Part shown: positions 26,702-35,984 of the stretch, piece after piece | Numbering within the stretch: the stretch's first letter is position 1 | Layout: each line of letters begins with the position of its first letter | DNA from: Halorubrum sp. PV6 | GTDB lineage: Archaea; Halobacteriota; Halobacteria; Halobacteriales; Haloferacaceae | Assembly (NCBI RefSeq): GCF_003990725.2 | Contig: NZ_CP030064.1 | Location: 806,001 to 870,000, forward strand | Length of the DNA: 64,000 bases | Reading direction: 5' to 3' | Position numbers and translations under genes: made by a program | The notes under the pieces: model-generated | What the model was told of the DNA's origin: nothing | Seen by the model: the letters and a program-made list of their open reading frames with translations, nothing else | Database searches by the model: none

Positions 26702-26905
26702 TCAGTCCCGCCGGTCGGTGATCCGCGCCGTCACGACGCCCGCCGTGACGAGCATGATACCGATGAACGCGTTCAACAGGATCCCGATCGACTCGCCGGC
26801 GGCCGCGTTCACCGACGCGAGGTAGATGAACACGACGGCGGCTGCGGCGTGGAGCGCGAAGACGCCAGTCGGTACGTTCGCCCCGAAGTCGAAGCCGATT
26901 TCCAT
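26702..26905 (-). CDS. Small two-helix membrane protein
   Basis: 67 aa. Two hydrophobic stretches (TGVFALHAAAAVVFIYLASV and GILLNAFIGIMLVTAGVVTA) with a short MEIGFDFGANVP lead and RITDRRD tail. Function unknown. ATG 26905 chosen because the much longer upstream frame runs through AT-rich promoter DNA of the divergent neighbour. Confidence 0.65.
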   Translation of the reverse strand: MEIGFDFGANVPTGVFALHAAAAVVFIYLASVNAAAGESIGILLNAFIGIMLVTAGVVTARITDRRD

Positions 26906-27052
26906 AGCAAACGTACGCCCAGGCCGGGCAAAAAGGGACCGGGTCAGTACCGCCGTTACGCGCTCGCCGGTCGCACACATCGCGCCGACCCGACGGCGAC
27001 CGTCGTCGACCATTTTCGATCGGTTGTCCTGGCGACCTCCGTAGCGCGTATG

Positions 27053-27082: not shown

Positions 27083-27241
27083 ATGTGTGTCTGTACCAAA
27101 CACGGGCGTATGCGACCACAAACGCAAACAACCGAACAAGAACTGTACGAATGTTTCAATTGCGGGGCGCGGACGAAGGCCGCCGGCAGCTGTGAGTGCG
27201 GCGGCGAGCTCCGACATATCGGCCGCTCACGGGATCTGTGA
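27083..27241 (+). CDS. Rubrerythrin-like zinc-ribbon mini-protein
   Basis: 52 aa with ELYECFNCGARTKAAGSCEC and CGGELRHIG, a rubredoxin-type CxxC...CxCGG knuckle like the haloarchaeal rubrerythrin-like-domain mini-proteins (DUF7129-like, from memory). The N-terminus adds CVCTKHG, giving extra cysteines and a histidine. A start at the next ATG (27110) would give the more usual 43 aa form. TATA spacing favours 27083. Confidence 0.7.
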   Translation: MCVCTKHGRMRPQTQTTEQELYECFNCGARTKAAGSCECGGELRHIGRSRDL

Positions 27242-27262: not shown

Positions 27263-28480
27263 TTACTCGCCCTCGTCGCTCTCGGCGGTGTCGTCGCCGT
27301 CCGCGTCGTCGCTCCCGTCGCCTCCCTCCGCGGCCGCGTCGTAGCCGGGCAGCGAGAGGACGTTCTCGCGCCCGAGCCGGAACCCTTCGAGGTCGCCGTC
27401 GTCCCGCAGCCCGGTGACGACTTGGCTCGTCTTGGCGGCGGTCCAGTCGAGCTCCTCGGCGACCCGCTTCTGTTTCATTCGGCCGCCCTCGGACTCCACG
27501 AGCCGAAGGACCTGCTCTTCGTTGCTCAACAGGTCCTCGTCGACCGGCGCCGCCTCGTCGCTCGCGTCGGACTCGGTCTCCCCCGTTTCGGTGTCCGTCT
27601 CGACCGTCCCGCCCTCGGACGCCCCCGCACCCGGCTCGTCGGACGCGCCTGTGGGGTCCGACGCGGTCTCCCCCTCGGCCACGCCCGCCGATGTCGCCGC
27701 CGGCTCGCCGGCGGCCGCCGTCGCGCCCGCACCCCGTTCCGCATCGCCCCTGTCCCACGGGCGGCGTCGGTAGCCGACCGCCGCGACGACCGCGACGACA
27801 AGCCCTATCGCGGCCAACAGGAGCGGGCCCACGGAGCGACTCGCCGGCTCGACCGTCACGCGGGGCTGCCCCTCGGTGAAGTCGACCGGCCCTCGCCAGA
27901 CGACGGCGTTCTCGCGGGTTTCCGTCGGCGACGGCGACGCATCGCCGAGTCGGTACTCCTCCGGCCACGTCACGATGAGCGACGAGGCCTCGTCGAGGAA
28001 CAGCGCGTCGACCGCGTCGCCGACGAGGATTCGGTCGTCTTCGACGGCCGCGAACCCCTCCCACTCGAACCGATAGGTAACCACGCCGTACGACTGCGGG
28101 AGTTCGCGTCGCTCCGCGGCCACCGTGACGTTCGTGACGTTCATCTCGCGGCCCGTCGCGTTCTCCGCGGCGGCCGCCGTCGCGCGCATCCGCTCCCCGA
28201 AGCGCGCGCTGTACGCGCTCGGGTCGGACTCCACGTCCGCCCGGAGCTCCTCGAACGCCTGCTCTTCGTCGTCGCTCGCGAGCCGGACTCGGTACTGCGT
28301 CTCCCAGACCGCGTCCCCGTCGGGCTGGACGCCGACTTCGATCAGGATGTCGTCCGGCGAGACGTCCAACTGGTCGAACCCGCCGGCCGGGAGGCCGCCA
28401 CCGCCCTGTGCGGCGCCACCCGTCGCGAGCGCGACGGCCGCGACGAGCGCGACGACCAGAAGGACTACCCTTCGCTGCAC
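27263..28480 (-). CDS. Membrane-anchored winged-helix regulator with extracellular domain
   Basis: 405 aa from GTG 28480. A Sec-type signal or anchor (QRRVVLLVVALVAAVALATG) is followed by an extracellular beta-rich domain (about 25-210; DILIEVGVQPDGDAVWETQY, VVTYRFEWEGF). A membrane helix (VGPLLLAAIGLVVAVVAAVG) lies near 220-240. An Ala/Glu/Thr-rich linker leads to a cytoplasmic winged helix near 325-385 (EEQVLRLVESEGGRMKQKRV, DWTAAKTSQVVTGLRDDGDL). This layout, outside sensor plus inside DNA-binding domain, matches haloarchaeal DUF7345/DUF7343 proteins (names from memory). The GTG fits a TATA 25 bp upstream; an ATG 13 codons earlier is the alternative. Confidence 0.8.
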   Translation of the reverse strand: MQRRVVLLVVALVAAVALATGGAAQGGGGLPAGGFDQLDVSPDDILIEVGVQPDGDAVWETQYRVRLASDDEEQAFEELRADVESDPSAYSARFGERMRATAAAAENATGREMNVTNVTVAAERRELPQSYGVVTYRFEWEGFAAVEDDRILVGDAVDALFLDEASSLIVTWPEEYRLGDASPSPTETRENAVVWRGPVDFTEGQPRVTVEPASRSVGPLLLAAIGLVVAVVAAVGYRRRPWDRGDAERGAGATAAAGEPAATSAGVAEGETASDPTGASDEPGAGASEGGTVETDTETGETESDASDEAAPVDEDLLSNEEQVLRLVESEGGRMKQKRVAEELDWTAAKTSQVVTGLRDDGDLEGFRLGRENVLSLPGYDAAAEGGDGSDDADGDDTAESDEGE

Positions 28481-28502
28481 GGGCAAACAGTTACGAGGCC
28501 GG

Positions 28503-28508
28503 GATAAA
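28503..28508 (-). promoter_or_regulatory. TATA box setting the GTG start of the membrane regulator
   Basis: TTTATC on the minus strand, centred 25 bp before GTG 28480. Leaderless initiation at that GTG yields a clean signal peptide, whereas the upstream ATG would lie within or before the core promoter. Confidence 0.45.
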
Positions 28509-28549
28509 TCGCTTCCCATCTCGCGAGTCCGGGCCGAGCCGAGTGCGCC

Positions 28550-29800
28550 CTATCCATCGATACCGCCCACGCCGACGACTCGCTGAAGCAGCCGCGCGCC
28601 GTCCGTCATCCTTCGATCGAGGCGCTCTGCGAGGTCGCTGCCGACGCTCGTGACGGCCGACGCCGCGCCGGTCGTCCCTCCGTTTCCGGTCCCCGCTCCG
28701 CCGGTCCCTGCCCCGCCGTTACCGCTCCCTGCTCCGCCGTCACCGCCTCTCGCTTCGTCGCTCCCTCCCGACCCGTTCCGGTTCGCGTCGGCTCCCGTCC
28801 CGTTACCGCGGTCGCCGTCGCTCCGTTCGGTCGGCGAGCCGGCGCCGCCCTCGCCGGCAGAGCCGCTTCCGCTCCCCGTCGGGCCGCTTCCGCTCCCCGT
28901 CGAGTCGCTTCCGTTCGTCGCCGGTCCGGACGGCGCGTCGTCGCTGCCGTTCGCCGGGGTGTTGCTGCCGTTCGCGGCGTCTCCCCCGCCGCCCATCCGG
29001 TTCGCTCCGTCCGGCGGCCCGCCGCGAGCGTCGCCTTCGCCGGGCGGCCCGCCGCCCGTGTCCGAGCGGTTCGCGCCCGGTCCGTCGCCCCGTCCCGGTC
29101 GGTCCGCGTCGGAGCCGTTTCGGGCTCCCTGTCCGACGCCCCGATCCTCTGGGGGGCCACGCCGGTCTGCGGCCAGCGGCCCGCCGACGCCGTTGCCGGC
29201 GACCCCGCGAGCGATGGCCGCGACCTCCGGCCCGCTCGCTTCGCCCGCCCGCTCGCGAAGGGTGTCGAGTCGGCTCACGTTGATCCCGCGGGCTTCCCGC
29301 GCCGCTTCCGGGAGGTCGCGGGCGACGGCGGCGCTCCGGTTCGCCTCGCGTTTGACCGCCTCGGCCCGAGCGCTCGTCTCCGCCATGCGGGCGGCGAACT
29401 GCCCGTGGCTCAACTCGCCGGCCTCGCGGCGCTCGCGGAGCGACCGCTGTTCACGTTCGATCGCTTCCAGTCGCTCTTCGGTCCGGTTCAGTCGATCTGC
29501 GACCAACGCGGCCCGCTCTTCGGGCGTCTCCGTCCGGTTGAGGCCGACCTCGAACGCCCGCGCCTCGACCTCTCCGGATATCTCGGCGCGCTGAACGCCG
29601 ATCACGCCGGAGAGACGCTCGCCGGGGCTGATCTCGTCCGTCTCGTTTGCGGTCCCGGTGCCGTCGCTCGACGCTTCGGTCTCGTTCGTCTCCACCGGAT
29701 CGTCTTGCGCGGCTGCTATCCCAATAGGGCCGGCCGCGGCGATTCCGGCGACGCCGACCACGACGACCACGGCGACGACGAGTGCGGTGCCTCGGTTCAT
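28550..29800 (-). CDS. Secreted low-complexity protein with helical domain (DUF7096-like)
   Basis: 416 aa. A signal peptide (MNRGTALVVAVVVVVGVAGI) is followed by a helical segment at about 50-205 rich in Glu/Arg/Ala (GERLSGVIGVQRAEISGEVE, LNRTEERLEAIEREQRSLRE), probably a coiled coil. A long Gly/Ser/Asn/Asp low-complexity region (about 210-385) contains many N-x-S/T glycosylation sequons. The last ~35 residues are amphipathic. The neighbour downstream is the membrane-anchored regulator; both face the outside. Start at ATG 29800 with TATA (tttatata, 29826-29833) at -29. Resembles DUF7096 proteins. Confidence 0.75.
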   Translation of the reverse strand: MNRGTALVVAVVVVVGVAGIAAAGPIGIAAAQDDPVETNETEASSDGTGTANETDEISPGERLSGVIGVQRAEISGEVEARAFEVGLNRTETPEERAALVADRLNRTEERLEAIEREQRSLRERREAGELSHGQFAARMAETSARAEAVKREANRSAAVARDLPEAAREARGINVSRLDTLRERAGEASGPEVAAIARGVAGNGVGGPLAADRRGPPEDRGVGQGARNGSDADRPGRGDGPGANRSDTGGGPPGEGDARGGPPDGANRMGGGGDAANGSNTPANGSDDAPSGPATNGSDSTGSGSGPTGSGSGSAGEGGAGSPTERSDGDRGNGTGADANRNGSGGSDEARGGDGGAGSGNGGAGTGGAGTGNGGTTGAASAVTSVGSDLAERLDRRMTDGARLLQRVVGVGGIDG

Positions 29801-29909
29801 TACCTGTCGGTACGGACCGTATCGGTATATAAACCGATCTCCGTTAAGCCGGATCAACGCGGATTAAACGGGCGACGGCAGCGGGGTGGGTAGAACCGTG
29901 CTCTTCGGC

Positions 29910-31385
29910 TCAGTACGACTTCGCGAAGTACGCGGTTCGCTCGGCGTCGTCGTCGCAGATCGCGCAGGTCTCGTCGTGGTCCGTCTCGCGGAGCGGGTCG
30001 TCGTCCTCGAACGGGACCATCACGATCTCGGCGGCCATCGGCTCTTTGATCGGCTCCTCGCAGGCCTCCTCGCCGCACCACGGCGCTTTCACGTAGCCGC
30101 CGTGCTGGCCGAGCGTCCCGAGGATGTCGGCGCGGTCGTCGGCCTCGCGAACCTCGCCGTCGAGGGTCTCTTCCGCGGCGGTGTACAGCTTCGCGTACAC
30201 CGTATCGAAGTGGTCGCAGACCGTCTCGACGACCCCGTCGCGGGCTTCGACAACGCTCTCGCCGTCGGGCCGGTGGACGAAGGTGAGTTCCTCGTCCTCG
30301 ACCTCGTGGGGGCCGATCTCGATCCGGAGCGGGACGCCGTTGAGCTCGTGTTCGTTGAACTTGAAGCCGGGATTGCGCTCGTCGCGGTCGTCGAGTTCGA
30401 CCCGGATCCCCGCGTCGTCGAGTTCGTCGGCGACGCCCTCGGCGTACGCCAGCACGTCGTCTTTCGTGTCCTCCTGCCAGATCGGGACGACGACGACCTG
30501 TTCGGGGGCGACGCCGGGCGGGAGCACGAGCCCCTGCTCGTCGGAGTGGGTCATGATAAGCGCGCCGAGCGCGCGCCACGAGAGTCCCCACGAGGTGGTG
30601 TGTGCGAGCCGCTCCTCCTCGTCTTCGTCGGAGTACGTGATGCCGAACGCCTCGGCGAACGACTGCCCGAGGTGGTGAGACGTCCCGGCCTGGACCGACT
30701 TCCCGTCGGGCATCAACGCTTCGACCGTCGTGGTCGTCTTCGCGCCGGGGAAGGTGTCGTGGTCGGGCTTTTGGCCTTTCAGAACGGGCATCGCCAGCAG
30801 ATCCTCGTAGACGGAGGCGTACTGGTCGAGCCGCGTCATCGTCTCATCCCAGGCGTCCTCGCTCGTCGCGTGGGCGGTGTGGCCCTCCTGCCAGAGGAAC
30901 TCCTTCGTGCGGAAGAACGGCTTCGTCTCCGTCGCCTCCCAGCGCACGACCGAACACCACTGGTTCACGCGCAGCGGGAGGTCACGGTGGCTCCGGACCC
31001 ACTGGCTGAGGTAGGGCGTGATGATCGACTCGGAGGTCGGTCGGACCGCGAGGCGCTCCTCGAGTTCTTTGTTCCCCGCTTCCGTCACCCACGCCACCTC
31101 GGGGTCGAACCCCTCGACGATGTCCTTCTCGCGTTCGAGGTACGACTCCGGGATGAAGAGGGGGAAGTAGGCGTTCTGGACGCCGGTGTCTTTGAACTTC
31201 GCGTCGAGGAACCCCTGGAGGCGCTCCCAGACGCCGTAGGCGCGCGGTCGGGTGACGATGAACCCGCTCATCCCCTCGGGCCCGTAGTCCGCGAGCCCGG
31301 CCTTCTGTACGACTTCGGCGTACCACTCGCCGGTGTTGTGTGACTTGGACTCGGTGATACCGAGCTCCTGGTCGTCGTCGCTCAT
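29910..31385 (-). CDS. proS: Prolyl-tRNA synthetase, archaeal/eukaryotic type
   Basis: 491 aa class II synthetase. Motif 2 and 3 regions are visible: RWEATETKPFFRTKEFLWQE and the HTTSWGLSWRALGALIMTHS block. An anticodon-binding domain begins near VVVVPIW. The C-terminal zinc-like domain carries CGEEAC and CAICDDD and ends in AYFAKSY, typical of archaeal ProRS. No YbaK editing insertion; a free-standing YbaK protein is encoded elsewhere in this window (2468-2959). Confidence 0.96.
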   Translation of the reverse strand: MSDDDQELGITESKSHNTGEWYAEVVQKAGLADYGPEGMSGFIVTRPRAYGVWERLQGFLDAKFKDTGVQNAYFPLFIPESYLEREKDIVEGFDPEVAWVTEAGNKELEERLAVRPTSESIITPYLSQWVRSHRDLPLRVNQWCSVVRWEATETKPFFRTKEFLWQEGHTAHATSEDAWDETMTRLDQYASVYEDLLAMPVLKGQKPDHDTFPGAKTTTTVEALMPDGKSVQAGTSHHLGQSFAEAFGITYSDEDEEERLAHTTSWGLSWRALGALIMTHSDEQGLVLPPGVAPEQVVVVPIWQEDTKDDVLAYAEGVADELDDAGIRVELDDRDERNPGFKFNEHELNGVPLRIEIGPHEVEDEELTFVHRPDGESVVEARDGVVETVCDHFDTVYAKLYTAAEETLDGEVREADDRADILGTLGQHGGYVKAPWCGEEACEEPIKEPMAAEIVMVPFEDDDPLRETDHDETCAICDDDAERTAYFAKSY

Positions 31386-34874: not shown

Positions 34875-35984
34875 TCACTTCCGCGCGATGATCCGCAGCA
34901 CGTCCTCGTCGGCCAGCTCGTGGCCCTTCCCGACCTGCTGGTCGTCGTGTTTCGCGCTCGTCCCCGAGACGCGCGCGAACTTGAATCGCTCGTCGAACTC
35001 GCCGCCGATCTTCGTACAGGCATCGCCGACGGTGTCGCCCTCGAACAAGATCAGCGGCTCCTCGTAGTCGACGCCGCGACCGGGCTTGTCCATGTAAATT
35101 CGGATGAGACCGAGCTCCTCCCAGAGGCGCTCTCTGAGCCCGTCGAGCCCGAGCTCCTTCTCGGCCGAGATGAAGAGCACGTCGTCGGGGTCGAGGTCGC
35201 GCTCGCGGAGTTCCTCCTTGACCGTCGGCAAGTAGCTCTTGTCGATGAGGTCCGCCTTGTTGACGGAGACCATCGAAGGGAGGTACTCGCGGTTGTCCAT
35301 CACGGCGTCGACCAGCTCGTCGATAGTCAGATCGTGGGGGATGGTCACCTTGGCGTTGACGTAGCCGTACTCGCGGAGGACCTGCTTGACCGTCCCCTCG
35401 TCGAGGCTCACGTCGTCGCTCATCGTCACCCCGATGCCGTCTTTGTGCGTCTTTCGGATGTTGATGTTCGGCGGCTCCGTGTCGAGGCGGATGTTCGTGT
35501 TGTACAGCTCCTCGCGGAGTCGGTCGTACTGCTCGATTTCGAACACCGAGAGCATAAACACGACCAGATCGGCGGTTCGAACCACGGACAACACCTCCTT
35601 CCCGCCGCCGCGTCCGCCGGCGGCGCCCTCGATCAGTCCGGGCACGTCCAATATCTGGATGTTCGCGCCGCGGTACTGCAGCATACCGGGGTTGACGTCG
35701 AGGGTCGTGAACTCGTAGGAGCCGACCTCGCTGTCGGCGTTGGTCAAGGCGTTGATGAGGGTGGACTTCCCCACGCTCGGGAACCCGACGAGCGCGACCG
35801 TGGCGTCCCCGTGTTTCTCGACGGCGTACCCGTGGCCGCCGCCGGCGGAGGACTGGTTTTCCAGTTTCTCCTTTTTTTCCGCGAGCTTCGCCTTCAGTCG
35901 CCCGACGTGAGCCTCCGTGGCCTTGTTGTAGGGCGTGTTGGCGATCTCCTCGCGGAGGTCCTCTATCTCCTCTTCCAGTCCCAT
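34875..35984 (-). CDS. drg: DRG-family GTP-binding protein
   Basis: 369 aa. A basic helical N-terminus (AHVGRLKAKLAEKKEKLENQ), G1 GFPSVGKS at 67-74, G3 DVPGLIEGAAGGRGGGKEVL, a mid-domain S5D2L-type insertion and C-terminal TGS domain (IRIYMDKPGRGVDYEEPLIL) are all DRG hallmarks. It is a ribosome-associated translational GTPase conserved across archaea and eukaryotes. ATG 35984 chosen over the open extension to 36107. It neighbours the related ychF on the same strand. Confidence 0.93.
   Translation of the reverse strand: MGLEEEIEDLREEIANTPYNKATEAHVGRLKAKLAEKKEKLENQSSAGGGHGYAVEKHGDATVALVGFPSVGKSTLINALTNADSEVGSYEFTTLDVNPGMLQYRGANIQILDVPGLIEGAAGGRGGGKEVLSVVRTADLVVFMLSVFEIEQYDRLREELYNTNIRLDTEPPNINIRKTHKDGIGVTMSDDVSLDEGTVKQVLREYGYVNAKVTIPHDLTIDELVDAVMDNREYLPSMVSVNKADLIDKSYLPTVKEELRERDLDPDDVLFISAEKELGLDGLRERLWEELGLIRIYMDKPGRGVDYEEPLILFEGDTVGDACTKIGGEFDERFKFARVSGTSAKHDDQQVGKGHELADEDVLRIIARK

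Follow-up and report, generated by a model that had tools for sequence, protein, structure and literature searches.

How those archaea that have no outer membrane pass information from the cell surface to transcription is, to our knowledge, poorly known. This question is raised by two neighbouring genes in Halorubrum sp. PV6, one for a putative membrane-anchored regulator and one for a putative secreted protein. The DNA examined here was a stretch of 64,000 nt (the window, to which all positions below refer unless another sequence is named), and its closest relatives are named Halorubrum species, with up to 72% identity. Three genes stand in a row on the minus strand and encode, in this order, prolyl-tRNA synthetase (29910-31385), a DUF7096 protein (28550-29800) and the regulator (27263-28480). 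The stop codon of the DUF7096 gene and the GTG of the regulator are 69 bp apart.

The open reading frame of the regulator as listed runs from 27263 to 28519 on the minus strand and begins with an ATG at 28519. This ATG sits inside a promoter-like element, and it is unusable as a start in three of the 14 Halorubrum genomes that were read, one of which has an in-frame stop (L162) and two of which read ATA (L156 and L169). In all 14 genomes the GTG, at 28480 in the window, was found 39 nt behind the conserved element ATRGGAAGSRATTT, counted from the first base of the element. The comparison supports GTG 28480 as the better start and agrees with the start given in the initial annotation. From this GTG the protein is 405 amino acids long. 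Based on hydropathy, Pfam and a structure model, it is predicted to consist of a signal peptide region (residues 1-23, 28412-28480, hydrophobic from 5 to 23), an alpha/beta DUF7345 ectodomain (residues 44-212, 27845-28351), a transmembrane helix (residues 217-238, 27767-27832, with 217-235 indicated by hydropathy) followed by RRR and, beyond a linker, a DUF7343 winged helix (residues 317-378, 27347-27532), all on the minus strand. The Pfam match to DUF7345 covered residues 49-176 (E 1.6e-32, 112.8 bits against a curated cut-off of 27.5) and that to DUF7343 residues 317-378 (E 5.6e-27, 93.8 bits against 27.6). Ectodomain and winged helix were modelled at a pLDDT of about 94-98, and most of the linker, an acidic and flexible segment predicted to be disordered, stayed below 50. 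Residues 313-381 resembled many MarR/ArsR-like winged helix-turn-helix chains (best Z 10.9, rmsd 1.9, 60 aligned), which assigns the C-terminal domain to the winged-helix fold and makes it a predicted DNA-binding domain. The top Foldseek matches of the ectodomain (FMO protein, ribophorin I and LppM) were discarded with TM-scores of about 0.2 or less, and a sequence search of the PDB gave 0 matches.

Hydropathy, positive-inside residues and the structure model gave the same predicted topology, that is a signal sequence, an ectodomain, a single transmembrane helix and a C-terminus on the inside. From this we infer that the regulator is a type I membrane protein with its ectodomain outside and its winged helix inside the cell, and the earlier proposal of an outside domain, one helix and a cytoplasmic winged helix agrees with hydropathy, Pfam and model in this computed topology. 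It had also been suggested that cleavage of the signal sequence, leaving a soluble protein, would speak against such an anchor. This does not apply to the regulator, because the second hydrophobic segment would hold the protein in the membrane with its signal sequence cleaved or intact.

The DUF7096 gene (28550-29800, minus strand) encodes a protein of 416 amino acids, which Pfam, hydropathy and the model predict to be secreted, helical and rich in sequons. Its hydropathy profile has a single hydrophobic segment at the N terminus, read as a signal sequence, and 13 N-X-S/T sequons were counted as compared to 2.5 ± 1.5 in shuffles, many of them in the tail; the reading of this protein as secreted in the initial annotation is supported, and the sequon count fits its description there as glycosylation-rich. 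The Pfam match to DUF7096 itself is weak (E 1.1e-6, 29.1 bits against a curated cut-off of 27), and the assignment is backed by its alignment to 32 proteins encoded next to other regulators. Alignment and model place the helical domain at residues 59-201 (29198-29626), with three long helices plus short ones and a pLDDT mostly above 90, and residues 210-381 (28658-29173) form a low-complexity, predicted disordered tail that is rich in Gly, Asn and Ser and has a pLDDT mostly below 50. About 30 bp 5' of the ATG a TATA-like box, TATATAAA (29826-29833, minus strand), was read directly from the sequence. For the helical bundle, Foldseek gave no match at E <= 0.001, and VIA structure matches (Z up to 10.5) were discarded because scores in this range count as noise for helical bundles. 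No LTXXQ-type Pfam match was obtained for the protein at E <= 1.

Both protein families are widespread among Halobacteria. DUF7345 was present in 391 of 391 Halobacteria genomes and in 28 of the 241 genomes from the same phylum outside this class, and both DUF7345 and DUF7343 were found in all 60 aligned members of the regulator family. DUF7096 was present in 79 of the 80 genomes of a genus-level set (80 of 89 genomes, with seven genera and two further genomes of the window's genus left out), and it is nearly confined to Halobacteria, as it was detected in 53 of 53 class members in a draw from the phylum as compared to three weak matches in the 241 others. The genome of the window carries two pairs. 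The one in the window is co-directional (class B), whereas the other (class A, C1:415698-417862, L079) is divergent and has a longer partner with DUF7096, DUF7094 and an Fn3-like domain. The mean pairwise identity of the winged helix was 0.68 in class B and 0.80 in class A, as compared to 0.45 and 0.36, respectively, for the ectodomain, and the length of the linker varied from 19 to 97 residues.

The pairing of the two genes is conserved. Of 40 class B loci from genus representatives, which were fetched by the position of the regulator alone, 33 had DUF7096 as an immediate same-strand neighbour, located downstream of the regulator in 31 of these 33; no partner was found within about 5 kb in 7/40 loci. 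In the named class B loci, DUF7096 was nearby in 76/80 and on the same strand in 75, and a DUF7096 neighbour was present in none of 16 control loci around drg, a gene for a DRG-type GTPase. The order of the window, with the partner upstream, was seen in 38 of 120 class B loci, with proS within reach in 31 of the 38, and in the remaining loci the partner was mostly downstream, with 20 loci beside argG and argH. For class A, the regulator was on the strand opposite to DUF7096 in 38/40 loci. This count covers L099-L138, which were fetched by the position of DUF7096 alone, because L079-L098 had been chosen knowing both genes. As the DUF7096 pieces are short, the automated scan by itself recognised the two class A genes in opposite orientation in only 22 of the 40 loci, and for the rest the strand of DUF7096 was taken from a profile search. 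Thus, the pairing persists through inversion of the gene order, relocation, changed neighbours and two paralogous arrangements, and the lack of conservation that had been named as a ground for rejecting a link was not found in either class. The same-direction arrangement that had been pointed out earlier is present in the window, but it is not a conserved trait, since the class A pair is divergent and in most other genera the partner comes after the regulator and not before it.

Several other genes were seen around the class B pair. The argG-argH genes were close to it in 22/120 loci, 20 with the partner nearby and 2 without, and these loci include L046, L050, L052, L056, L061, L064, L076 and L078. 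A gene resembling LigT/2'-5' RNA ligase was located near the pair in several loci (confirmed by Pfam in L053). In six class B loci (L058, L068, L069, L070, L074 and L076) a stand-alone DUF7345 protein is encoded right after DUF7096; Pfam confirmed the domain in five of these proteins, which were all that were tested, and a C-terminal PGF-CTERM signal was above the cut-off in L076 and sub-threshold in L069.

Additionally, the evolutionary distances of the two proteins were compared. The partial correlation between the ectodomain and DUF7096 distances was 0.76 with ProS removed (31 loci) and 0.74 with ArgG removed (20 loci), whereas that between the winged helix and DUF7096 was -0.02 and 0.22 with the same controls, the winged helix being too conserved to carry much distance signal. 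When an additional neighbour gene was removed, the correlation of the ectodomain with DUF7096 was 0.46-0.80, and that of the ectodomain with the additional gene was -0.02 to 0.52, with the value of 0.52 obtained in one set, for an unrelated gene. Rates can also become coupled when linked genes that evolve fast are inherited together. The coupling favours a functional link between the ectodomain and DUF7096, and it falls short of proof of contact.

Outside Halobacteria we analysed 20 loci from 19 of the 28 DUF7345-positive genomes. A relative of the regulator was present in all 20, with some of the open frames truncated or fragmentary, and in 14 of the 20 the upstream gene on the same strand encoded a predicted secreted helical protein that matched a DUF5667 profile. 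The profile was built with six of these 14, and Pfam confirmed DUF5667 in these six and one more; the weakest profile match of a partner (L307) had an E of 1.5e-10. A DUF7096-like neighbour was found in one further locus, the sequence of L299, L306 and L312 breaks off no more than 400 bp 5' of the regulator, and no partner was found at L291 and L309. The similarity between DUF7096 and DUF5667 is weak (hhalign probability 57), so DUF5667 at the place of DUF7096 may be either an analogue that replaced it or a distantly related family. At L297 (832-2702), a DUF7096-like and a DUF5667 secreted protein are encoded in tandem directly upstream of the regulator.

The promoter of the regulator carries the element ATGGGAAGCGATTT (28506-28519, minus strand, 39 nt upstream of the GTG), which resembles a BRE/TATA core promoter and is a candidate operator. 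The pattern ATRGAAAGNRTTTTC was found with at least 13 of 15 positions upstream of the class A regulator in 58/60 loci, as compared to a best score of 12 of 15 in control flanks (n = 80). A shorter form of it was found in 60/80 genomes, and the reversed pattern gave two matches in all. The distance from the class A element to the start codon was mostly 38-44 nt, which is the position expected of BRE/TATA if the transcript is leaderless, and the Halorubrum class B promoter bears a variant of the element. Initially, the element was considered an operator specific to the regulator, with two matches in 3.04 Mb, both 5' of the two paralogues, a count that was partly by design as the pattern had been loosened to take in the site of the window. 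This specificity was dropped, as 16 of the 17 sites that were neither in class A nor in the window's genus were located upstream of drg, in 15 genomes of one family (f4) and one genome of another (f8), and a similar core was present about 41 nt before the ATG in most of 20 further drg promoters. In 17 matched genomes the mean pairwise identity of the element was 0.83 for class A and 0.65 for drg, and the promoter of the drg gene in the window (35241-35984, minus strand) scored only 9 of 15. Because drg promoters share the core, we regard the element as a core promoter with strong conservation and treat an operator role as no more than a candidate, and given its BRE/TATA position and its resemblance to drg promoters, its conservation falls short of demonstrating autoregulation. 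As a core promoter it appears to be under unusual constraint, and it may also serve as the regulator's own operator.

We consider it fairly probable that the pair works as a membrane one-component signalling module in which the regulator has a dedicated helical partner outside the cell. The regulator would span the membrane, with DUF7345 facing outwards and the winged helix held inside the cell by a long disordered tether, and the secreted DUF7096 protein would be this partner, acting as a ligand, a co-sensor or a reporter of cell-surface occupancy. Such a partnership is suggested by the conserved linkage, the paralogue-specific pairing, the replacement by DUF5667 elsewhere and the coupled evolution. 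When partner binding or the state of the surface changes, the tethered winged helix would be altered, directly or via proteolytic release, and would in turn change transcription, probably including that from the regulator's own promoter.

The secreted protein could instead be the product of a surface-protein gene that is controlled by the regulator, a membrane one-component sensor also in this case, and not a binding partner. The divergent class A layout is typical of a regulator beside the gene that it controls, and the class A promoter core is conserved. However, the rates of the partner are coupled to the ectodomain and not to the winged helix, the class B regulator usually precedes its partner on the same strand, and another secreted helical family fills the same place in other archaea, and we regard this explanation as rather unlikely, though the strongest of the competing ones. 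Linkage by chance, or by a general co-regulation of surface genes, seems highly improbable for a pair that was kept in two paralogous arrangements, through relocation and inversion of the order, even if the partner is absent nearby in 7/40 class B loci and neighbours in archaeal genomes often persist. Regulated proteolysis, with shedding of the ectodomain and the winged helix cut free as a soluble factor, would fit the single transmembrane helix and the long, variable and disordered linker (19-97 residues), but a long tether would also fit DNA binding at the membrane, and we think this course of events improbable. Returning to the signalling module, we propose, with more hesitation than for the pair itself, that it may be a general archaeal envelope-sensing module, in which a type I membrane protein carrying its winged helix at the C terminus is paired with a secreted helical protein (DUF7096 in Halobacteria, DUF5667 in other members of the phylum). 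It would have been duplicated into an autoregulated divergent copy that was kept across Halobacteria, and in some lineages it would have been joined by the stand-alone, partly surface-anchored DUF7345 protein, as a possible decoy or receptor.

Bacterial regulators of the ToxR/CadC type have an N-terminal cytoplasmic winged helix-turn-helix, one transmembrane helix and a C-terminal sensor outside, and ToxR has a small partner, ToxS. The predicted regulator likewise combines a winged helix, one transmembrane helix and a sensor outside the cell in a single chain, but the order of the chain is reversed and its candidate partner is a secreted helical protein. CpxP and Spy are periplasmic helical partners of envelope sensors and offer a parallel for a putative secreted helical protein alongside a membrane sensor, although the sensor in those systems is a histidine kinase. 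Among archaea, ArnR and ArnR1 of Sulfolobus are described as membrane-bound one-component regulators with a helix-turn-helix in the N-terminal region, and CsmR is a different, small protein of 13 kDa (PMC13286277). ArnR and ArnR1 share with the regulator studied here that they are archaeal membrane-anchored helix-turn-helix proteins; however, the winged helix found here is C-terminal (residues 317-378 of 405) and comes after a signal peptide, an ectodomain and one transmembrane helix. Another report lists arCOG00381, a 'membrane-bound transcriptional regulator' from halobacterial loci for type IV pili that is filed under pfam11748 (PMC4858521), which by its description alone is also a haloarchaeal membrane-bound regulator. 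The accessible section of PMC5118699 contained nothing on the DUF7345-DUF7343/DUF7096 family. The regulator has the exact domain content of the Pfam combination DUF7345-DUF7343 (PF24036 and PF24034), above the curated cut-offs, and both are domains of unknown function. Our literature search yielded no mention of DUF7345, DUF7343, DUF7096, DUF4897 or DUF5667, and within the literature searched no function was assigned to the pairing of the regulator with DUF7096. Membrane one-component regulators are thus already known, whereas the reversed chain order together with a secreted helical partner, retained throughout Halobacteria and with counterparts in other archaea, was not found described in that literature.

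A DUF7345 regulator was present in every Halobacteria genome sampled, accompanied by a candidate ligand and with a predicted DNA-binding domain that is strongly conserved throughout the class. The class B pair occurs in Haloferax species (L255, L256, L261 and L264) and Haloferax volcanii matches both DUF7345 and DUF7096, and therefore the module is open to ordinary genetics. On the other side of the regulator gene in the window, a small protein that resembles a CxxC/CxC zinc ribbon, as judged from its translation only, is encoded convergently at 27110-27241 (plus strand), and a short membrane protein with a sub-threshold resemblance to SMR transporters is encoded downstream at 26702-26911 (minus strand).
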